Below the pieces are notes generated by a model. It was not told the DNA's origin. It worked only from the letters and a program-made list of their open reading frames with translations, and made no database searches. The position numbers and the translations under genes were made by a program. Of a stretch of 32,000 bases of DNA, positions 12,815 through 23,002 are shown piece after piece. Numbering within the stretch: position 1 is the first letter of the stretch; every line of letters begins with the position of its first letter. This DNA comes from a virus. The DNA is taken from positions 1 through 32,000 of the IMG/VR virus record IMGVR_UViG_3300035701_000171. One strand, written 5' to 3'.

Positions 12815-13777
12815 TTAAGATGGTTGGAAAGTTGTTACATTAAGGCCAGAAATCCAGTTTTGGTTTGTAATCGCACGAGCAATCGCAAATTTGGCGTAAA
12901 GCTGGGAGTTCTGAGCGACAGAAGAAACAACCCAAGGCGGACGATAACCAATAACGGCCGTGTAATTGTTTTGTTCGATTTTGGCTGCTGCTTCTAGTCC
13001 ATACATAGGTACTGTGTAGACCGTGTTACCCTTTAAAGAGATACCAGGAGTTTTTGCGGCCTTAGATGAAACAAAAAATCGAAAACGGCTAATCGAGCAG
13101 TACTCTTCTGGACGAATGCCTTCTTGTGTTGGATATGCTGACTTTAACAACACGCCTTGCACTTTCTGCAAGTCAGATGATAAGTTTGTGTGAGCAAGCG
13201 CGATAAACGCATCACGTACACCAGCAGTACCAAAGCGGAGTGTCGCTTGAAGGTCGGTTAGCATTGTGCGAGCGTCATTTCCAAGAAGGATGTTCTCAAT
13301 GTTGTTTACATCATTCAAGGATATGTTAGAAGGCTGATCTCCGTTTAAACCACCAGTGGCATTGATATATGACACGCTTGAGCTGAAGAGATCTCTCATT
13401 AATAGATCTTCTTTCTCACGCAGCCATTGACCAAGCAATGCGGTAAATTTTGTAAGAGTCTTTGAGTTCTGCCACAAGATGACTTGTTCGTTTGTTACGA
13501 TAGTCTTCGCGTAGATTTCCATTTTCGCATCAATATCCGAACGAACGGGAACTTCTGGAGCTGGGTCAATCCCTGAACCATCGAGTTGTCCACCATCCGT
13601 AGATAGGCGTTCAAATCGAGACATACGAGTTGTTTGACCAACGTAGCTTTCTGCATGATGGAGATCTACCCCGAAGGAGTGGATCAAGTTGAACATTGGA
13701 GTTGAGAGAAGGTCCTCGCTAGCCTGTAAGGGAAGCTCTGGAGCCATGGTATTGATATTTGTAATTCCTGACTGCAT
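12815..13777 (-). CDS. Major capsid protein, N4-gp56 type, 320 aa
   Basis: This is the shell protein of the head. Length, position after the scaffold-type gene and sequence pattern fit the N4-gp56 major capsid family: an N-terminal arm, then YVGQTTRMSRFERLS, GIDPAPEVPVRSDIDAKMEI, a long spine-helix region with the motif LGQWLREKEDLLMRDLF, and a beta-rich C-terminal domain (GNTVYTVPMYGLEAAAKIEQ). The ATG at 13777 has GAGG four bases upstream. A candidate sigma70-type promoter lies 130 bases upstream, which would allow separate high-level expression. There are no cysteines apart from one near residue 227. Confidence 0.82.
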   Translation of the reverse strand: MQSGITNINTMAPELPLQASEDLLSTPMFNLIHSFGVDLHHAESYVGQTTRMSRFERLSTDGGQLDGSGIDPAPEVPVRSDIDAKMEIYAKTIVTNEQVILWQNSKTLTKFTALLGQWLREKEDLLMRDLFSSSVSYINATGGLNGDQPSNISLNDVNNIENILLGNDARTMLTDLQATLRFGTAGVRDAFIALAHTNLSSDLQKVQGVLLKSAYPTQEGIRPEEYCSISRFRFFVSSKAAKTPGISLKGNTVYTVPMYGLEAAAKIEQNNYTAVIGYRPPWVVSSVAQNSQLYAKFAIARAITNQNWISGLNVTTFQPS

Positions 13778-13950: not shown

Positions 13951-14160
13951 TCATTCTTTTTCATCATTATCATAGTCATAAATTTTTATTTTTCCTGCAT
14001 ATGTGTCTCCAGTCATTTTGCATCCATGTGTAAGCATACCAAGATGATAGCATGCTTTTGTCATTTTATTTTCTATAATTAACTTTGCAATAATTCTAAG
14101 TTCTTTTTCTATTAAGTAGTTAATAGTTGAAACAATTTCTTTGTGGAATTCCTCTTTCAT
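13951..14160 (-). CDS. Small protein of unknown function, 69 aa
   Basis: The ATGA overlap with the preceding stop and the SD GAAGGG support translation. The protein is an amphipathic helix (residues 1-38) followed by a short segment with His, Cys and Met (CYHLGMLTHGCKM) and an acidic tail. No family is recognised. Two Cys and two His in 13 residues could bind a metal, but the spacing matches no known finger. Confidence 0.6.
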   Translation of the reverse strand: MKEEFHKEIVSTINYLIEKELRIIAKLIIENKMTKACYHLGMLTHGCKMTGDTYAGKIKIYDYDNDEKE

Positions 14161-14954
14161 ACACCCTTCCTTACTTGTTGCATTCTAGCCCAATTTTCTG
14201 CTCTTCTTCTTTCCGTTTCTTGCCATCCTTCACGTGGTGACTCTCCAGTAGGAGAGGTTCCAGGAGAAGAAATAGAGCGTGGTTTGTTACTATTTACCTC
14301 CGCTCTAATAGAGTCTTGACGTGCATTAGCTTGATTGGGTATTAGCCTCTTTACAGCGTGATAAATATCATGCCATTTGTCATAACCTTCATTTAAACGT
14401 TGAAGAGGTCTAGAAACTTCAGGATAGTGGTAGTCTAGGTAATCTAATGCCTCTTGGCTACACACTTTATTGAAGTCAGGGAAGTCTTTATTCAAACGTG
14501 TTGGATATTCTCTTTGCTCTCTTTCTTGTTGCTGCCTAGCGAATTGCTGTTCTTTTTGCGCTAAAATAGCCTCTACTTTCTTTTCAATACGCTGTTCTTC
14601 AGTTTCTTCAGAAGAATCATTTATTCCATAGTATTGTTGTTGTGGAGTGGGTGCCTGTTTCGAAAAGGCTGCTTCCATGGCTGCTTTAAGAGCTGATGCT
14701 TCAGCTTCTTTTTCATTAGCTCGTCGCTCTGCTGCTTCCTTGTCAACACGGTCTTTTTTTCGGGCCTCGCGAAATGCGCGCCAATTAGGGTCTTCATTGG
14801 ATTCCGGTTCTTTATTTTCAGGGGGTTTTTGTGCGTTAGTTTCTACTTTTTGATGTGAAATATTTGATTCATTTGGTGAATTGGATACACTGGTTTCAAT
14901 TTGTTGTTTTGCGATAATTTCCGGTTGAGGACTTTCAGGATTCAAAATACCCAT
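14157..14954 (-). CDS. Scaffold-like protein, 265 aa
   Basis: This is a likely head scaffold, used in shell assembly and then lost. It is very hydrophilic, rich in Glu, Gln, Lys and Arg, with a long coiled coil around residues 60-150 (EAAERRANEKEAEASALK). There is a short ordered zone (about 155-205: DFPDFNKVCSQEALDYLDYH) and a basic C-terminus. That profile and the place between portal and capsid genes are typical of scaffold proteins, which have little sequence conservation. The SD is AAGGAG, eight bases before ATG. Confidence 0.7.
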   Translation of the reverse strand: MGILNPESPQPEIIAKQQIETSVSNSPNESNISHQKVETNAQKPPENKEPESNEDPNWRAFREARKKDRVDKEAAERRANEKEAEASALKAAMEAAFSKQAPTPQQQYYGINDSSEETEEQRIEKKVEAILAQKEQQFARQQQEREQREYPTRLNKDFPDFNKVCSQEALDYLDYHYPEVSRPLQRLNEGYDKWHDIYHAVKRLIPNQANARQDSIRAEVNSNKPRSISSPGTSPTGESPREGWQETERRRAENWARMQQVRKGV

Positions 14955-14968
14955 AATAGGATCTCCTT

Positions 14969-15286
14969 GTGATTGATAATAATATTGTAAAAGAAAAGAC
15001 TCAGGATATCAATAGTAATTTTGAACATGAAATAAAAATGCAGAAGTTGCGCGAGGAATTGTCAAAAAGTTTCGAAAATTACAAAAACACAATGAGGATG
15101 CTTACGGCCGATGCGCCTATAGAAACACTTTGCTTACCTTCTACCATTGAGAAAATCCTGTTAAACCATGGCTGTCTGCGTATCTACGATTTGGTTGACT
15201 TGGATTTTACTAAAATCGAAGGGCTCAAGCCTGTTAGAATCAGGAACCTTACAACCAGCCTTAATCAATTCCTCTCTATGATGTAA
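14969..15286 (+). CDS. Small protein with RNA polymerase alpha C-terminal-domain-like fold, 105 aa
   Basis: Residues about 50-102 fit the alpha-CTD pattern: PIETLCLPSTIEKILLNHG, then YDLVDLDFTKIEGLKPVRI and LTTSLNQFL, matching the family layout P-x-x-x-L-x-L, a helix, xDLv, then the HhH-like turn and last helix. The N-terminal 45 residues are a charged coiled helix. The GTG start has AGGA seven bases upstream; an ATG at codon 24 is an alternative with a weaker site. It is alone on the plus strand inside the head module, diverges from the scaffold gene and fills a 206-base space that holds no minus-strand gene. Its last 126 bases overlap the 201-aa gene in antisense. It could bind DNA or host RNA polymerase; the function is not shown. 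Confidence 0.65.
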   Translation: MIDNNIVKEKTQDINSNFEHEIKMQKLREELSKSFENYKNTMRMLTADAPIETLCLPSTIEKILLNHGCLRIYDLVDLDFTKIEGLKPVRIRNLTTSLNQFLSMM

Positions 15287-15766
15287 GAAATATTCATGTT
15301 CTGATGGCATGTTTATCCCACTTTCATAACGTATGTACTGCCAAAATTTACCTTCAAAAAATGCACATGCCCATGCCTGCATGGTTTTGTATCTTTTGTT
15401 GACAACGGCTAAAGAAGATAGTTCTGCCATTACCATATCACTAGGCAGTACCCATAATCTTTTTGTTATTTTTTGCTTGGATTTGTCATACAAAAAAACA
15501 GCTTGGTTAGGACGAGGACTAGGTAGATATGGCCAACAGTAGAACTTTCTACGAATGAGATTTTTAATGAGAGGATCCTTAGACACAAGCATCACTACAC
15601 AAAATTCATTCTCGTTAATCATATCGTTGTATTTTCTAGCCGACTCATATAAGTTCTCGGATATGTCTTCAGACATTGCATAACCAACTTCTAGAGCATC
15701 ATACTTTGTCGTGTCTGACAATGCTTTGAATGACAACTCGCCGGCTGTTTTTCTTTGTGTTTTCAT
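15161..15766 (-). CDS. Conserved-type head-module protein, 201 aa, function unknown
   Basis: It is a compact, ordered protein with SLAVVNKRYKTMQAWACAFF, FEGKFWQYIRYESGINMPSE and a C-terminal EELIKAGCKVP motif. It has no signal peptide, membrane helix or enzyme motif that I recognise. It lies between portal and scaffold genes, where head proteases and small accessory proteins are often found, but no protease triad is evident. Its SD (GGAG) is 11 bases from the ATG and lies within a 12-bp inverted repeat that could hide it. The 3' end overlaps the plus-strand alpha-CTD-like gene by 126 bases. Confidence 0.75.
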   Translation of the reverse strand: MKTQRKTAGELSFKALSDTTKYDALEVGYAMSEDISENLYESARKYNDMINENEFCVVMLVSKDPLIKNLIRRKFYCWPYLPSPRPNQAVFLYDKSKQKITKRLWVLPSDMVMAELSSLAVVNKRYKTMQAWACAFFEGKFWQYIRYESGINMPSEHEYFLHHREELIKAGCKVPDSNRLEPFDFSKIQVNQIVDTQTAMV

Positions 15767-16522: not shown

Positions 16523-18547
16523 TTATACCGCGCTTTCTTGCGGCTGATTAGCAAGCTTCACAGCTTGAGCATACTCAAAAGCATTCTTAAATTGCATAAA
16601 CTGCATGTCTTCAAGCTCTACCATCATTTTCACTAAGTCTAAATCTGCTTGAGCGTTCTTGTGTTCTGCACTTGCGTGTAGATCTTCCATTTTGGCCATG
16701 CGTTCTCTAGTCGAAGCCATAAGATCCTGTTCTTTAGCCATATCAACTTTAGATTTAGAAAACAGTGACATTATCTTGGCGTTATCCATTTTCTCTTGTT
16801 GTTGAGCTTGTTCTTGCTGTTGCGCTTGTTGCTGCTGGGCCTCATTTTCCATATCCTTAACAACTTGCTGCTTGTTGGTGATAAATGCTGCTCGTATAAT
16901 AGACTTATTTGCAATAGGGATTCCAAGCTCGCGAAAGTGAAGAAGCTGTTGAAGCTCCATTTGTCGTTGGGATGTACTATAATTACCCTCTTCAACAGCG
17001 ACAGCATATTTTTGGCTATGGCTGGACCAAAATCTATCATCTGCATCGCGCCCAAGGATATTTCGGATCTTACCTTTACTGAAGTTTTGACGAATTGCAG
17101 CAAGGCGTATCTTTCCGTACAGGCGCTGCGAGTAGTCGAGTTTATCGAAAACAGTTTGAAGTGTTGTAAGACCTGCTCCCTGACGTAGCATAGACAGAAT
17201 TCCTGCCTTATCGTCTGTTGCGGATCCCAATAATTCTTCATTAACACCTGAGATTTTTGTTATATCTTCTGCAAGGCTATTTGATAGCTCAAGCAAGGAT
17301 TGTGGTATTGCTACTGGCTCGATGCGTTGAATCTCTGCAGGTGTATGCCCTGCTTTCAGAGGGACAAGGAATCCATCACCGCCGCTTGATTGTCTGAATG
17401 CCTTTACGTCTGTCACCACATCTACTGGATAAATCCATCCGGCATTTAAAGAACTTTGTAACAGCTGAAGCTCGATCACCTTTCGCATGTTATATAGAAA
17501 TTGACTGTCTCGTAAATTTCTAATTATACCCATTTTTCGCCATGCATATGCTTGTATATCTTGCTCTATATAGCACTGACAGGGAACAAATGGATACTCA
17601 TCAATACCAAGTAGATTCTTTCCATGATAGACAATCTTACCTGACAGACATAGAACCAGTTTAACAGTTGGAACTTCGATATTCTTCACCTGAAGCCATG
17701 GCTGTTGTTGCAGTACACGCTCCATCATGCCTTCTTCTTCCGCTTCATCCTCTTTCCACTCTACAGACTCACCCGTATATGGATCTAAGACTAGTTTTCC
17801 TGGTCTAGTGCTTCGATAGTAAAATTCATCGTATGTAAATAGGTTTGAAGTTGCAACGTTTTGAAGCTCGGCCTGCATTGGAAAACGCCCGTCTTTCATT
17901 CCACCAGGCTTCATCTTATCGATTTCTTTAGCATAACCAGGCAATAGGGACTTAGCCATCTCTTTACTAGTCCAACGCCTACGCCATATTCCATTACAAT
18001 CGCTAAGGTCTTGCTTGCGTGTATATTGATCTATCAAATAATTATTATAAGCTACTGTATCTGTGAACAGATCACCTGAAACAGGATCGAAAGTGTAATC
18101 TGGATACAGATGTAAAAGTGTTTCACCTGTGTCTAATGCACCCTCAAAAGCCTGAGAAAGGTATTCTTGGAATCCATCACGATCATCGCACCAGCGATTT
18201 ACCTTGTTGTAGTCATCTGCTAATTGATCGCCTTCATCCAAGACAGGAATAGATATTGTAGATTTTCGATTCTTACGTTGATATCCTGCAATCATGTTGA
18301 TGTGACGACGAATCAAGTTGAAATAGAATTTTTGAACGTTTTGTGATTGAGACCCATAGACTTGGTTATAAAGCTGTTGGTCGCCTACCTTGAATCTTTT
18401 ATCAATTGAACCTTGCACCCAGTGACTTGCATTTGTTGGATACTGGCTTGTGTAAAACCAGTCCATCATTTGTTTTAGATCCTTAGCTTGTACATCTGAT
18501 GGGTCTATATATCCCAAAGAATAACCGCCCGATTCGTATGACCCCAT
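16523..18547 (-). CDS. Portal protein, P22-like, 674 aa
   Basis: This is the dodecameric ring through which DNA enters and leaves the head. Length and pattern fit the P22-type portal group: an N-terminal helical wing (FYFNLIRRHINMIAGYQRKN), a long central clip and stem region (LVPLKAGHTPAEIQRIEPVA, then SGVNEELLGSATDDKAGIL), and a C-terminal Gln-rich coiled coil (QQQQAQQQEQAQQQ) that may form a barrel. I place the start at the ATG at 18547, although only GGA lies upstream. A TTG at 18565 would add six residues and has no SD, and a 6-bp hairpin (TGTGAT/ATCACA) lies just above it. Directly upstream are the terminase genes, the usual order. Confidence 0.85.
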   Translation of the reverse strand: MGSYESGGYSLGYIDPSDVQAKDLKQMMDWFYTSQYPTNASHWVQGSIDKRFKVGDQQLYNQVYGSQSQNVQKFYFNLIRRHINMIAGYQRKNRKSTISIPVLDEGDQLADDYNKVNRWCDDRDGFQEYLSQAFEGALDTGETLLHLYPDYTFDPVSGDLFTDTVAYNNYLIDQYTRKQDLSDCNGIWRRRWTSKEMAKSLLPGYAKEIDKMKPGGMKDGRFPMQAELQNVATSNLFTYDEFYYRSTRPGKLVLDPYTGESVEWKEDEAEEEGMMERVLQQQPWLQVKNIEVPTVKLVLCLSGKIVYHGKNLLGIDEYPFVPCQCYIEQDIQAYAWRKMGIIRNLRDSQFLYNMRKVIELQLLQSSLNAGWIYPVDVVTDVKAFRQSSGGDGFLVPLKAGHTPAEIQRIEPVAIPQSLLELSNSLAEDITKISGVNEELLGSATDDKAGILSMLRQGAGLTTLQTVFDKLDYSQRLYGKIRLAAIRQNFSKGKIRNILGRDADDRFWSSHSQKYAVAVEEGNYSTSQRQMELQQLLHFRELGIPIANKSIIRAAFITNKQQVVKDMENEAQQQQAQQQEQAQQQEKMDNAKIMSLFSKSKVDMAKEQDLMASTRERMAKMEDLHASAEHKNAQADLDLVKMMVELEDMQFMQFKNAFEYAQAVKLANQPQESAV

Positions 18548-18621
18548 ATAGCATGTCCATGGCAATGTGATTTAAGTTTTTTATATCACATAACGGAGGA
18601 ATTATCAAATTTTATTTCTCA

Positions 18622-18799: not shown

Positions 18800-20074
18800 C
18801 TAAAATCCTGTAATCTGACTATTAAAAGAAGAGTATATGTCATCGTCTTGAAAAACTTTTCTCCTAAGTTGATCATAGCTTATGTTTTCATCGGGATGAC
18901 TAAACTCACCTTGGGGAAATGCTGAACAAACAGCATACCTAAGCGCATCACATATGTGATCGTTCTTCTTAACCGGTTTATCTTCCCCTCTATCTGCTGC
19001 CTTAGAATCCCAAGCATAAGATTGGAGATGCTCTCTTAAAGTTGTGCAACCTTTTTGAATGACTATGTTTTTTCCTCCAATAAACTTTGAGCAGATCTTA
19101 ATGCCAAGTAAGACGTCGTTATTTGCATCCAGTACGGGAAGTTCAGCTTGTCTAAGAGAAATCTTGAGGGACGCTGCCGCAGGGTCCACATAAACTGCAG
19201 ATAAGTTTTTATAACCAATAAACTCTTTGATATCCCGAACGAGTTCCTGATCCGTTTTGGAACGCCCTTTTTTAGCTGAATCGTAGTAATACTCCGCTTC
19301 AACCCGAATTTGCGGCCACTTGTTTGGCGTAACCGCCAATAGAACGGCCGCCGTAGCATTAGTGGTGCCATAATCAATCCCGACAATGTAATAACTCGGA
19401 GCAGGGAAAGGATTTTCATATTCATTATCTTTGTCGTAGCAGTCATATATAGCCCCATGTGCAAGCGCCCATTCACCCAATATGTATCGGTTGTACCACA
19501 TGCCTGTGTAAGAAGCCTTGAGCTGTTGTTTATACTTGTCATCTAGTATAGGATTGTCTTCAAGGTTAAAGCTCCAATGAACCAAGTCTAATCCTGGTTT
19601 GTCAAGATAGTCCTTTTTAAGCCAGTGTGCCGGTCCTTCAGGGTTGCATGTCGCTAGTAGTTTCGCTCCCGGAACTCGTAGGCGTGACTCTAGCATCTTC
19701 CAAAATGGTTCCGGAAGATTCGTCGCCTCGTCGACATAAGCGAGCGCAAGAGTACTCCCTTGAATAGTTGATACAGCAGAGACATCCGGAGCCCCCACAA
19801 ACCATACATCCCGACCGTACAGCCGACTCATTCCCGCTTTCTCTGTTGGACATGGAAAACCTAACCTTCTGTAAAGATGAGTTAGAATATTTCGTTGAAT
19901 AGCCGTTCGGTTAACGCCTATGATCATGGCATCACCAGGTGGTCCATTCTTTAGATCATAGATTAAGCGCTCTATGCTTGAGTATGTCTTACCAGAACTT
20001 ACAGCACCGACCCATATGTTGAATCGATGCGTAGCCTCACAAAAACTTTTATTCTGCTTGGGACTTGTTGGCAT
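18800..20074 (-). CDS. terL: Terminase large subunit, 424 aa
   Basis: This is the packaging motor and nuclease. The ATPase half has Walker A GAVSSGKT (residues 23-30), Walker B LALAYVDEA (108-116, with Asp114-Glu115) and a coupling-type TCNPEGP at 141-147. The nuclease half has GIDYGTTNATA (Asp233), YVDPAA (Asp296) and NDHICDALRYA (Asp371 and Asp375), the RNase H-like metal site. Length matches the Terminase_3/XtmB group. It overlaps the small subunit gene by 26 bases, so it is coupled to it. The packaging strategy (cos or headful) cannot be told from this alone. Confidence 0.95.
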   Translation of the reverse strand: MPTSPKQNKSFCEATHRFNIWVGAVSSGKTYSSIERLIYDLKNGPPGDAMIIGVNRTAIQRNILTHLYRRLGFPCPTEKAGMSRLYGRDVWFVGAPDVSAVSTIQGSTLALAYVDEATNLPEPFWKMLESRLRVPGAKLLATCNPEGPAHWLKKDYLDKPGLDLVHWSFNLEDNPILDDKYKQQLKASYTGMWYNRYILGEWALAHGAIYDCYDKDNEYENPFPAPSYYIVGIDYGTTNATAAVLLAVTPNKWPQIRVEAEYYYDSAKKGRSKTDQELVRDIKEFIGYKNLSAVYVDPAAASLKISLRQAELPVLDANNDVLLGIKICSKFIGGKNIVIQKGCTTLREHLQSYAWDSKAADRGEDKPVKKNDHICDALRYAVCSAFPQGEFSHPDENISYDQLRRKVFQDDDIYSSFNSQITGF

Positions 20075-21114: not shown

Positions 21115-21639
21115 TCAATTTAAGGCAATGACTTCTCCACAGCTATGAGATGCATCATCACCAGGAGCTTGTGTAAATCCGCTGGCAACTGAACCATTAA
21201 CCAAAGCTGAATTTATCCAAAAAGAAAGTGCCCAACTTGGGACAGGAATAGGAACAGGAACAGTGATTTTGGCTTGCGCCTGCCACTGAAGTTGATAAAC
21301 ACCAGCCTTAAGAAACTTAATCTCACCAGTAGAATTCATCATCGTAAGATCAAAATCCAACGCTGAGACTTCATTTTGTGATTCAAAGAGAACTTGATCT
21401 CCTATTTGACCAACATTATAGGGAGCAATCAATTGGATCTTTGAACTGAAGACGTTTGCATATGGAAGCATATGCTCTTCACAATCACAACGTCCTGGAT
21501 CGCCTTTTTGTCCTTGAAGACCTTGTGGTCCTTGGGAACCAGTTTGTCCCGGAATTCCTTGAACTCCAGGAACACCTTGAACCCCTTGAGGACCTTGCAA
21601 ACAACAACATTCATGAAATTTATGTTCATCTTTGCACAT
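21115..21639 (-). CDS. Collagen-like protein with short C1q/TNF-like domain, 174 aa
   Basis: Residues about 15-50 hold twelve G-x-y triplets (GPQGVQGVPGVQGIPG). Cys clusters on both sides (CCC at 11-13, CDC at 51-53) could link chains. Residues about 60-174 resemble the jelly-roll C-terminal domain of BclA/C1q-type proteins (IKFLKAGVYQLQWQAQAKIT, then FWINSALVNGS). It stops at GEVIALN, before the last strand of such domains, so it may be truncated. The SD is AAGGAG. In phages such proteins are fibres or surface adhesins; the isolated position suggests an accessory gene. Confidence 0.75.
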   Translation of the reverse strand: MCKDEHKFHECCCLQGPQGVQGVPGVQGIPGQTGSQGPQGLQGQKGDPGRCDCEEHMLPYANVFSSKIQLIAPYNVGQIGDQVLFESQNEVSALDFDLTMMNSTGEIKFLKAGVYQLQWQAQAKITVPVPIPVPSWALSFWINSALVNGSVASGFTQAPGDDASHSCGEVIALN

Positions 21640-22429: not shown

Positions 22430-23002
22430 TTAAACCTTGATGTTTAACTTTTCAAGATATTTATATAAACACGTTCTAGAAATCCCCAATTCTTCCGCTA
22501 TTTTTGTCTTGCTCTTACGTGTAAGTAACTCTTTCTTCAGTATCTCAATATCCCCTTCATTAAGCTTTTCACTTCTCCCTTTGAATCTCCCTAACTTCTT
22601 GGCTATCACAATTCCTTCTTGTTGCCTTTCTCGAATGAAAGCGTATTCAAATTCCGCAAAAGATCCTAGAATATGAAGCATCAAGTTGGAGAAGGAAGAA
22701 TTCTCGTTTGTGAATTCCAGATTCTCTTTTACAAAACAGACTTTTACTTTTTTTTCAGTTATTGTTGTAACGAGCTTCTTCAAGTCATAGACGTTTCGTG
22801 CAAGACGATCCATGCTGTGGACAAAAATAACGTCATCCTCTCTTACAAACTCTAACATCTGCTGCAACTGTGGCCTACCGATTGTTGACTTAGCCGATGC
22901 ATACTCAATAAACTTCTTATCTAACTGTAATTGATCGAGCTGCCTATCTGGATTCTGATCGATTGTGCTAACTCGTATATATCCTATTCGTTTACCGGTC
23001 AT
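22430..23002 (-). CDS. Serine recombinase, resolvase/invertase family, 190 aa
   Basis: The N-terminal catalytic domain has YIRVSTIDQN with the nucleophile Ser12 and Arg10, and MDRLARN (64-70) with conserved Arg66 and Arg69. The E-helix region FAEFEYAFIRERQQEG (116-131) leads to a C-terminal helix-turn-helix (about 164-185, TKIAEELGISRTCLYKYL). Length is that of small resolvases and invertases, not large integrases. It could resolve genome multimers or invert a segment. I see no clear recombination sites next to it. The ATG overlaps the stop of the 55-aa membrane gene (ATGA). Confidence 0.9.
   Translation of the reverse strand: MTGKRIGYIRVSTIDQNPDRQLDQLQLDKKFIEYASAKSTIGRPQLQQMLEFVREDDVIFVHSMDRLARNVYDLKKLVTTITEKKVKVCFVKENLEFTNENSSFSNLMLHILGSFAEFEYAFIRERQQEGIVIAKKLGRFKGRSEKLNEGDIEILKKELLTRKSKTKIAEELGISRTCLYKYLEKLNIKV

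Follow-up and report, generated by a model that had tools for sequence, protein, structure and literature searches.

A conserved phage gene with a predicted alpha-CTD-fold product overlaps a head-module gene on the opposite strand

Gene organization and conservation of the plus-strand gene

The DNA analysed, hereafter the window, comprises 32,000 nucleotides and corresponds to an entire 32-kb virus record (IMGVR_UViG_3300035701_000171), with a P22-like portal protein gene (16523-18565; PF16510, E = 5.6e-65) and a terminase large subunit gene (18800-20074) on the minus strand. Other minus-strand genes encode a probable major coat protein (12815-13777), assigned by its position and very high conservation, a conserved 201-aa protein (15161-15766) that gave no match to any family (Pfam, PHROGs) or fold, and a charged 265-aa protein between portal and coat (14157-14954), which is a likely scaffold by position and composition only and has no family match in Pfam or PHROGs. 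The plus-strand gene studied here (14969-15286) starts with GTG, codes for 105 aa, is placed head to head with the 265-aa gene and overlaps the 3' end of the 201-aa gene. Elsewhere in the window (22430-23002 and 21115-21639) a serine recombinase of the DNA invertase family was found near a short collagen-like gene of the tail-fibre type, an arrangement that could mean invertible tail-fibre genes. Another plus-strand ORF, of 322 codons (595-1563), is antisense to a minus-strand gene for a 719-aa protein (531-2690).

The only match in the genome collection was a 16.5-kb contig in a Bacteroidetes metagenome-assembled genome (MAG). The gene layout of this contig is that of the phage throughout, so the match does not settle the host, and the contig may have been mis-binned. 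Strong use of Shine-Dalgarno sequences is unusual for Bacteroidota hosts. A relative of this MAG carries, at locus positions 1351-1674 and separate from rpoA, a small ORF (about 107 aa) that clearly matches alpha-CTD (32 bits) and whose product is rich in cysteine at the N-terminus.

Searches with the single 105-aa sequence gave nothing convincing in Pfam, PHROGs, the PDB or scanned viral contigs, where exact patterns were too strict, and only chance-level matches by tblastn of annotated phages. The loci of relatives were fetched by their portal and coat genes, that is, independently of the plus-strand ORF, which makes the conservation test unbiased for it. The ORF was present in 132 loci obtained in this way (tblastn), with 88 distinct full-length copies showing 32-64% identity to the query, and it was found in all 123 loci that hold both flanking genes (the window's own fragment is left out of this count), always on the strand opposite to the portal gene. 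Loci fetched through the 201-aa neighbour contained it in 77 of 77 cases. When the family itself was used, both flanking genes were found in 78 of 80 loci, the remaining two ending just beside the gene, and these 80 loci revealed no other genomic context. The fetches share many contigs, so these counts are not mutually independent and the fair number is that of the 88 distinct copies, all with the same place and strand.

The start codon is conserved in the 88 copies (ATG in 66, GTG in 15 and TTG in 7), the family ranges from 91 to 128 aa, and four residues (Y38, L64, R71 and F101) are invariant in the alignment of 84 homologues. Outside the overlap, the codon positions vary in the order expected of coding DNA (third more than first, first more than second). 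Judged by this conservation, the ORF at 14969-15286 is a genuine, conserved gene, and the observation from which the analysis started, an ORF on the opposite strand of the head module, was confirmed.

Predicted fold and contact residues of the product

A profile of the 84 homologues ranked alpha-CTD first among PDB sequences (1doq, E = 0.037, weak by itself), and 10 of the 16 matches in this search were alpha subunits. The AlphaFold model (mean pLDDT 81) has a single long helix at residues 3-46, in the part encoded by codons 1-46 (14969-15106), and then a compact domain at about residues 48-104 (codons 48-104, 15110-15280). Foldseek comparison with the PDB placed alpha subunits or complexes containing alpha-CTD at ranks 1-19, with probability up to 1.00 and, in good superpositions, an rmsd of 1.0-1.2 Å over 58 columns. 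The first match of a different kind, a RAD51-complex chain, was at rank 20, with other helix-hairpin-helix proteins ranking lower. The predicted model contains both elements of the alpha-CTD fold, the non-standard helix and the helix-hairpin-helix, the latter encoded by codons 79-98 (15203-15262; family consensus DFTKIKGLGxxRIRxLTxxL).

Profile-profile comparison by hhalign gave moderate similarity to a broader mixed set of alpha-CTD sequences (P = 0.0018) and nothing useful with a narrow Bacteroidota set. At the curated threshold of PF03118 the 105-aa protein was unmatched and nothing in the record was over the cut-off, and 2 of the 84 homologues matched this family (best E = 0.00045). Taken with the predicted structure, these results support the assignment of the product to the alpha-CTD version of the helix-hairpin-helix fold. 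The earlier note, made by eye, had fitted residues of about 50-102 to alpha-CTD, a range that matches the compact domain of the model, and had described a helical N-terminus, which corresponds to the long helix. Its alternative of a general helix-hairpin-helix domain was disfavoured by both Foldseek and the profile search.

Compared with the alpha-CTD of RNA polymerase (PF03118), which was the best structural and the best profile match, the phage protein has the same fold, helix order and hairpin, but it is stand-alone and three residues shorter between two helices. The alpha N-terminal domain is not joined on, the N-terminal helix being found in its place across the family (91-128 aa). E. coli numbering was transferred through the profile-profile alignment and the Salmonella alpha sequence. 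In alpha-CTD, the UP-element DNA contacts are R265, N268, G296, K298 and S299, and the sigma-contact determinant is formed by D259 and E261. In the phage family, the R265 position is occupied by V, T, A or S, the K298 position by V, R or T and the N268 position by K, N or T, and an arginine, conserved in most members, stands at the S299 position. Among the UP-element contacts only G296 is kept in most members, with K in the window copy. The sigma-contact positions are I, V or T (D259) and C (E261), and are not conserved. The hairpin GLG and the arginine three residues on are conserved in most members, although in the window copy K87 replaces the second G of this motif, which is G in 85% of the family. 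The domain is not basic, with a mean net charge of -0.8. Since neither R265 and K298 nor the sigma-contact residues are conserved, binding of UP elements in the known way, by the canonical residues, appears unlikely on sequence grounds, against the suggestion that the protein could bind these promoter elements.

The same residues bear on the main rival of a transcription role, namely a protein of nucleic-acid binding or head assembly that has only the fold in common with alpha-CTD and would act through its helix-hairpin-helix on phage DNA, in head assembly or packaging, and not on RNA polymerase. The retention of the hairpin GLG and its arginine while the alpha-CTD-specific contacts are lost is consistent with such a protein, as is the fixed place of the gene within the head module, beside the portal and scaffold-like genes, in every relative. 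However, the gene is on the strand opposite to all head genes, the domain has no net positive charge, and alpha-CTD was favoured over generic helix-hairpin-helix domains in both the structural and the profile search. This explanation is regarded as tentative, but it has to be taken seriously.

Among viral proteins compared by structure (Foldseek), two direct family members came first, followed mostly by phage proteins annotated as RNA polymerase alpha C-terminal. The two members (A0A6J5LGT9 and A0A6J5LGC0, from uncultured Caudovirales phages; 52% and 47% identity over the full length) are named "uncharacterised", with neither function nor fold. The annotated proteins (A0A6J5MNY7 and those of Mycobacterium phage Mithril and Rhodococcus phage Finch) are also small and have an alpha-CTD-fold domain, with identity to the protein described here near 20% over the aligned part. 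Bacillus phage Goe8 (QDP42789.1) and Microbacterium phage Mazun (gp26) likewise encode small alpha-CTD-domain proteins, but their genes run in the same direction as the neighbouring genes, antisense coding is not annotated, and the domain keeps an arginine at the R265 position, unlike that of the present family. Our literature searches returned no description of a stand-alone alpha-CTD-like phage protein, which is not proof that none exists. Phage proteins with this domain are thus a kind already known from public records, and what is new is a subfamily with conserved coding on both strands.

Antisense overlap and selection on both frames

The earlier note was silent on the overlap of the plus-strand gene with the conserved minus-strand gene for the 201-aa protein. 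The two genes overlap tail to tail over 126 nt (15161-15286) with exactly complementary codons (phase 123:321, alias -0), and the same phase was found in 88 of 88 relatives, with an overlap length of 129 nt in 56 and 126 nt in 14 of them. The alpha-CTD part, which is the second half of the plus-strand gene, is therefore encoded codon for codon antisense to the conserved C-terminus (the last 41 codons) of the 201-aa protein. Within the overlap, the segment GATTTTACTAAAATC (15203-15217) is near-palindromic and reads DFTKI on the plus strand and DFSKI on the minus strand, both motifs being conserved in the family.

Pairs of relatives at 75-85% identity showed change rates of 0.224, 0.044 and 0.277 at codon positions 1, 2 and 3 in the overlap, compared to 0.210, 0.126 and 0.442 outside it. 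The shared middle position is thus nearly frozen, with comparable rates at positions 1 and 3, whereas selection on one gene alone predicts that its third position would be the most variable. In the overlapping part of the neighbour, TTA or CTA was used in none of 183 leucine codons (46% outside) and TCA in none of 249 serine codons (28% outside), these three codons being stops when read on the opposite strand. At the overlap boundary, the neighbour's synonymous codon differences drop from 0.59 to 0.34, and they stay low through to its end. The frozen middle position, the avoidance of stop-making codons and the synonymous drop together indicate that both frames are constrained: wobble freedom is lost in both, and codons that would stop the other frame are avoided. 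On these substitution and codon-usage patterns, purifying selection acts on both products in the overlap, the same DNA being selected for two proteins.

The ORF might also be spurious, an antisense frame that stays open only because the 201-aa gene is conserved. In favour of this, the exactly complementary phase tends to produce longer antisense overlaps (PMC8903798) and correlated conservation. Against it, over half of the ORF is outside the overlap and shows conservation at the protein level, TTA, CTA and TCA are avoided by the neighbour in the overlap only, the gene has a Shine-Dalgarno sequence and a conserved start, and the product is predicted with fair confidence to fold into a known domain. 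This reading is already contradicted by the data and is considered extremely improbable. A conserved gene whose product has the alpha-CTD fold and which is dual-coded with its neighbour is, by comparison with the functional proposals below, a reading held with high confidence.

The model of the 201-aa protein is confident to about residue 160 and poor past about residue 170, with the overlap starting at residue 161, and disorder is predicted for its tail, opposite the folded alpha-CTD domain. Probably, the 201-aa gene was extended into an older alpha-CTD-like gene.

Two proteins from opposite strands of one DNA are also found in the antisense overlapping gene pairs of bacteria and viruses (PMC7457138, PMC7017920, PMC8903798). 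In the available text of these surveys and reviews, which count annotated overlaps or discuss expression evidence, there is no folded transcription-related domain with both strands selected across a phage group. In the present case, by contrast, both frames show selection in dozens of divergent phages, and a folded domain can be recognised in one of the two products. Antisense cases make up about 6.6% of annotated overlaps in viruses, the codon-aligned ones tending to be longer (PMC8903798), and the functionality of prokaryotic antisense proteins continues to be debated (PMC7457138).

Translation signals and proposed role

Two divergent ribosome-binding sites are nested at 14955-14968, where AGGA (14958-14961) serves the plus-strand gene and CTCCTT (14963-14968), read as AAGGAG on the minus strand, serves the 265-aa gene. 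In the relatives, the plus-strand Shine-Dalgarno sequence GGAG at -11 to -8 abuts a CTCC at -6 to -3, which is that of the divergent scaffold-like gene. The mean energy of the anti-Shine-Dalgarno duplex upstream of the plus-strand gene was -5.8 kcal/mol, compared to -1.5 for shuffled sequences. The nested sites of the window and its relatives make up a near-palindrome (GGAG-N-CTCC), the two start codons being separated by about 15 nt, and this arrangement is conserved group-wide.

A promoter search on the plus strand over 350 bp upstream in 86 relatives performed no better than on shuffled sequences, and promoter-like sites around the gene numbered 5, fewer than expected by chance. The scaffold-like gene varies little at synonymous sites over its first 40 codons, but this was rejected as a promoter signal, because few residues align there and the same-residue pairs come from close relatives. 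A terminator-like plus-strand hairpin was observed at 15366-15384, 79-84 nt past the stop of the plus-strand gene and inside the 201-aa gene. It coincides with conserved codons of the 201-aa protein, and a terminator-like site within 200 nt after the gene was found in only 7 of the 88 relatives. The opposite strand and the gene's own ribosome-binding site favour expression apart from the late head genes, and to this extent support the timing of its own that had been proposed, although the promoter that would sustain it was not found.

A function of the plus-strand transcript itself, as an antisense RNA repressing the 201-aa and scaffold-like genes with the protein being secondary, was also considered. 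Such a transcript would run antisense across the ends of two head genes, and mutual repression in cis is possible between convergent antisense loci, as described for a different system (PMC12720443). Conservation at the protein level, the codon pattern in the non-overlapping half, the conserved start and the Shine-Dalgarno sequence require translation, so that antisense RNA can only be an additional role, and as the main function it is improbable.

The explanation preferred here is an accessory transcription protein. The alpha-CTD-fold protein would be translated from a plus-strand transcript, apart from the late minus-strand head operon, using the plus-strand member of the nested pair of ribosome-binding sites. 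It would probably dimerise via the long N-terminal helix, possibly a coiled coil or dimerisation arm, and its alpha-CTD-like surface may touch RNA polymerase or activators, DNA being contacted through the hairpin in addition or instead. With the convergent, mutually antisense layout, the plus-strand transcript and the head-gene transcript would interfere in cis. Redirection of host RNA polymerase, as put forward in the earlier note, is a possible role, and the interpretation given there is partly supported overall. The loss of the alpha-CTD contacts to DNA and sigma, the domain not being basic, the weak sequence similarity, the lack of a Pfam match and of a promoter all weigh against a role in transcription, which is somewhat doubtful on its own, and the explanation as a whole, joining the conserved dual-coded gene to this role, is finely balanced. 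A further and rather unlikely proposal is that the protein is the phage group's stand-alone mimic of alpha-CTD with a rewired contact surface, encoded antisense to a head gene, and that the two strands are each translated from nested ribosome-binding sites, with both products being of importance. The locus would then constitute a built-in switch: host RNA polymerase would be altered by the mimic, whose own transcript would be mutually exclusive with the late head transcript.

Few antisense overlaps between protein-coding genes are well supported. In the one described here, the signs of selection on two strands are legible across dozens of divergent phages, one of the products has an identifiable predicted fold, and two ribosome-binding sites are nested at the junction. 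The family also adds a divergent alpha-CTD-fold group to the set of phage proteins with a possible action on host RNA polymerase.
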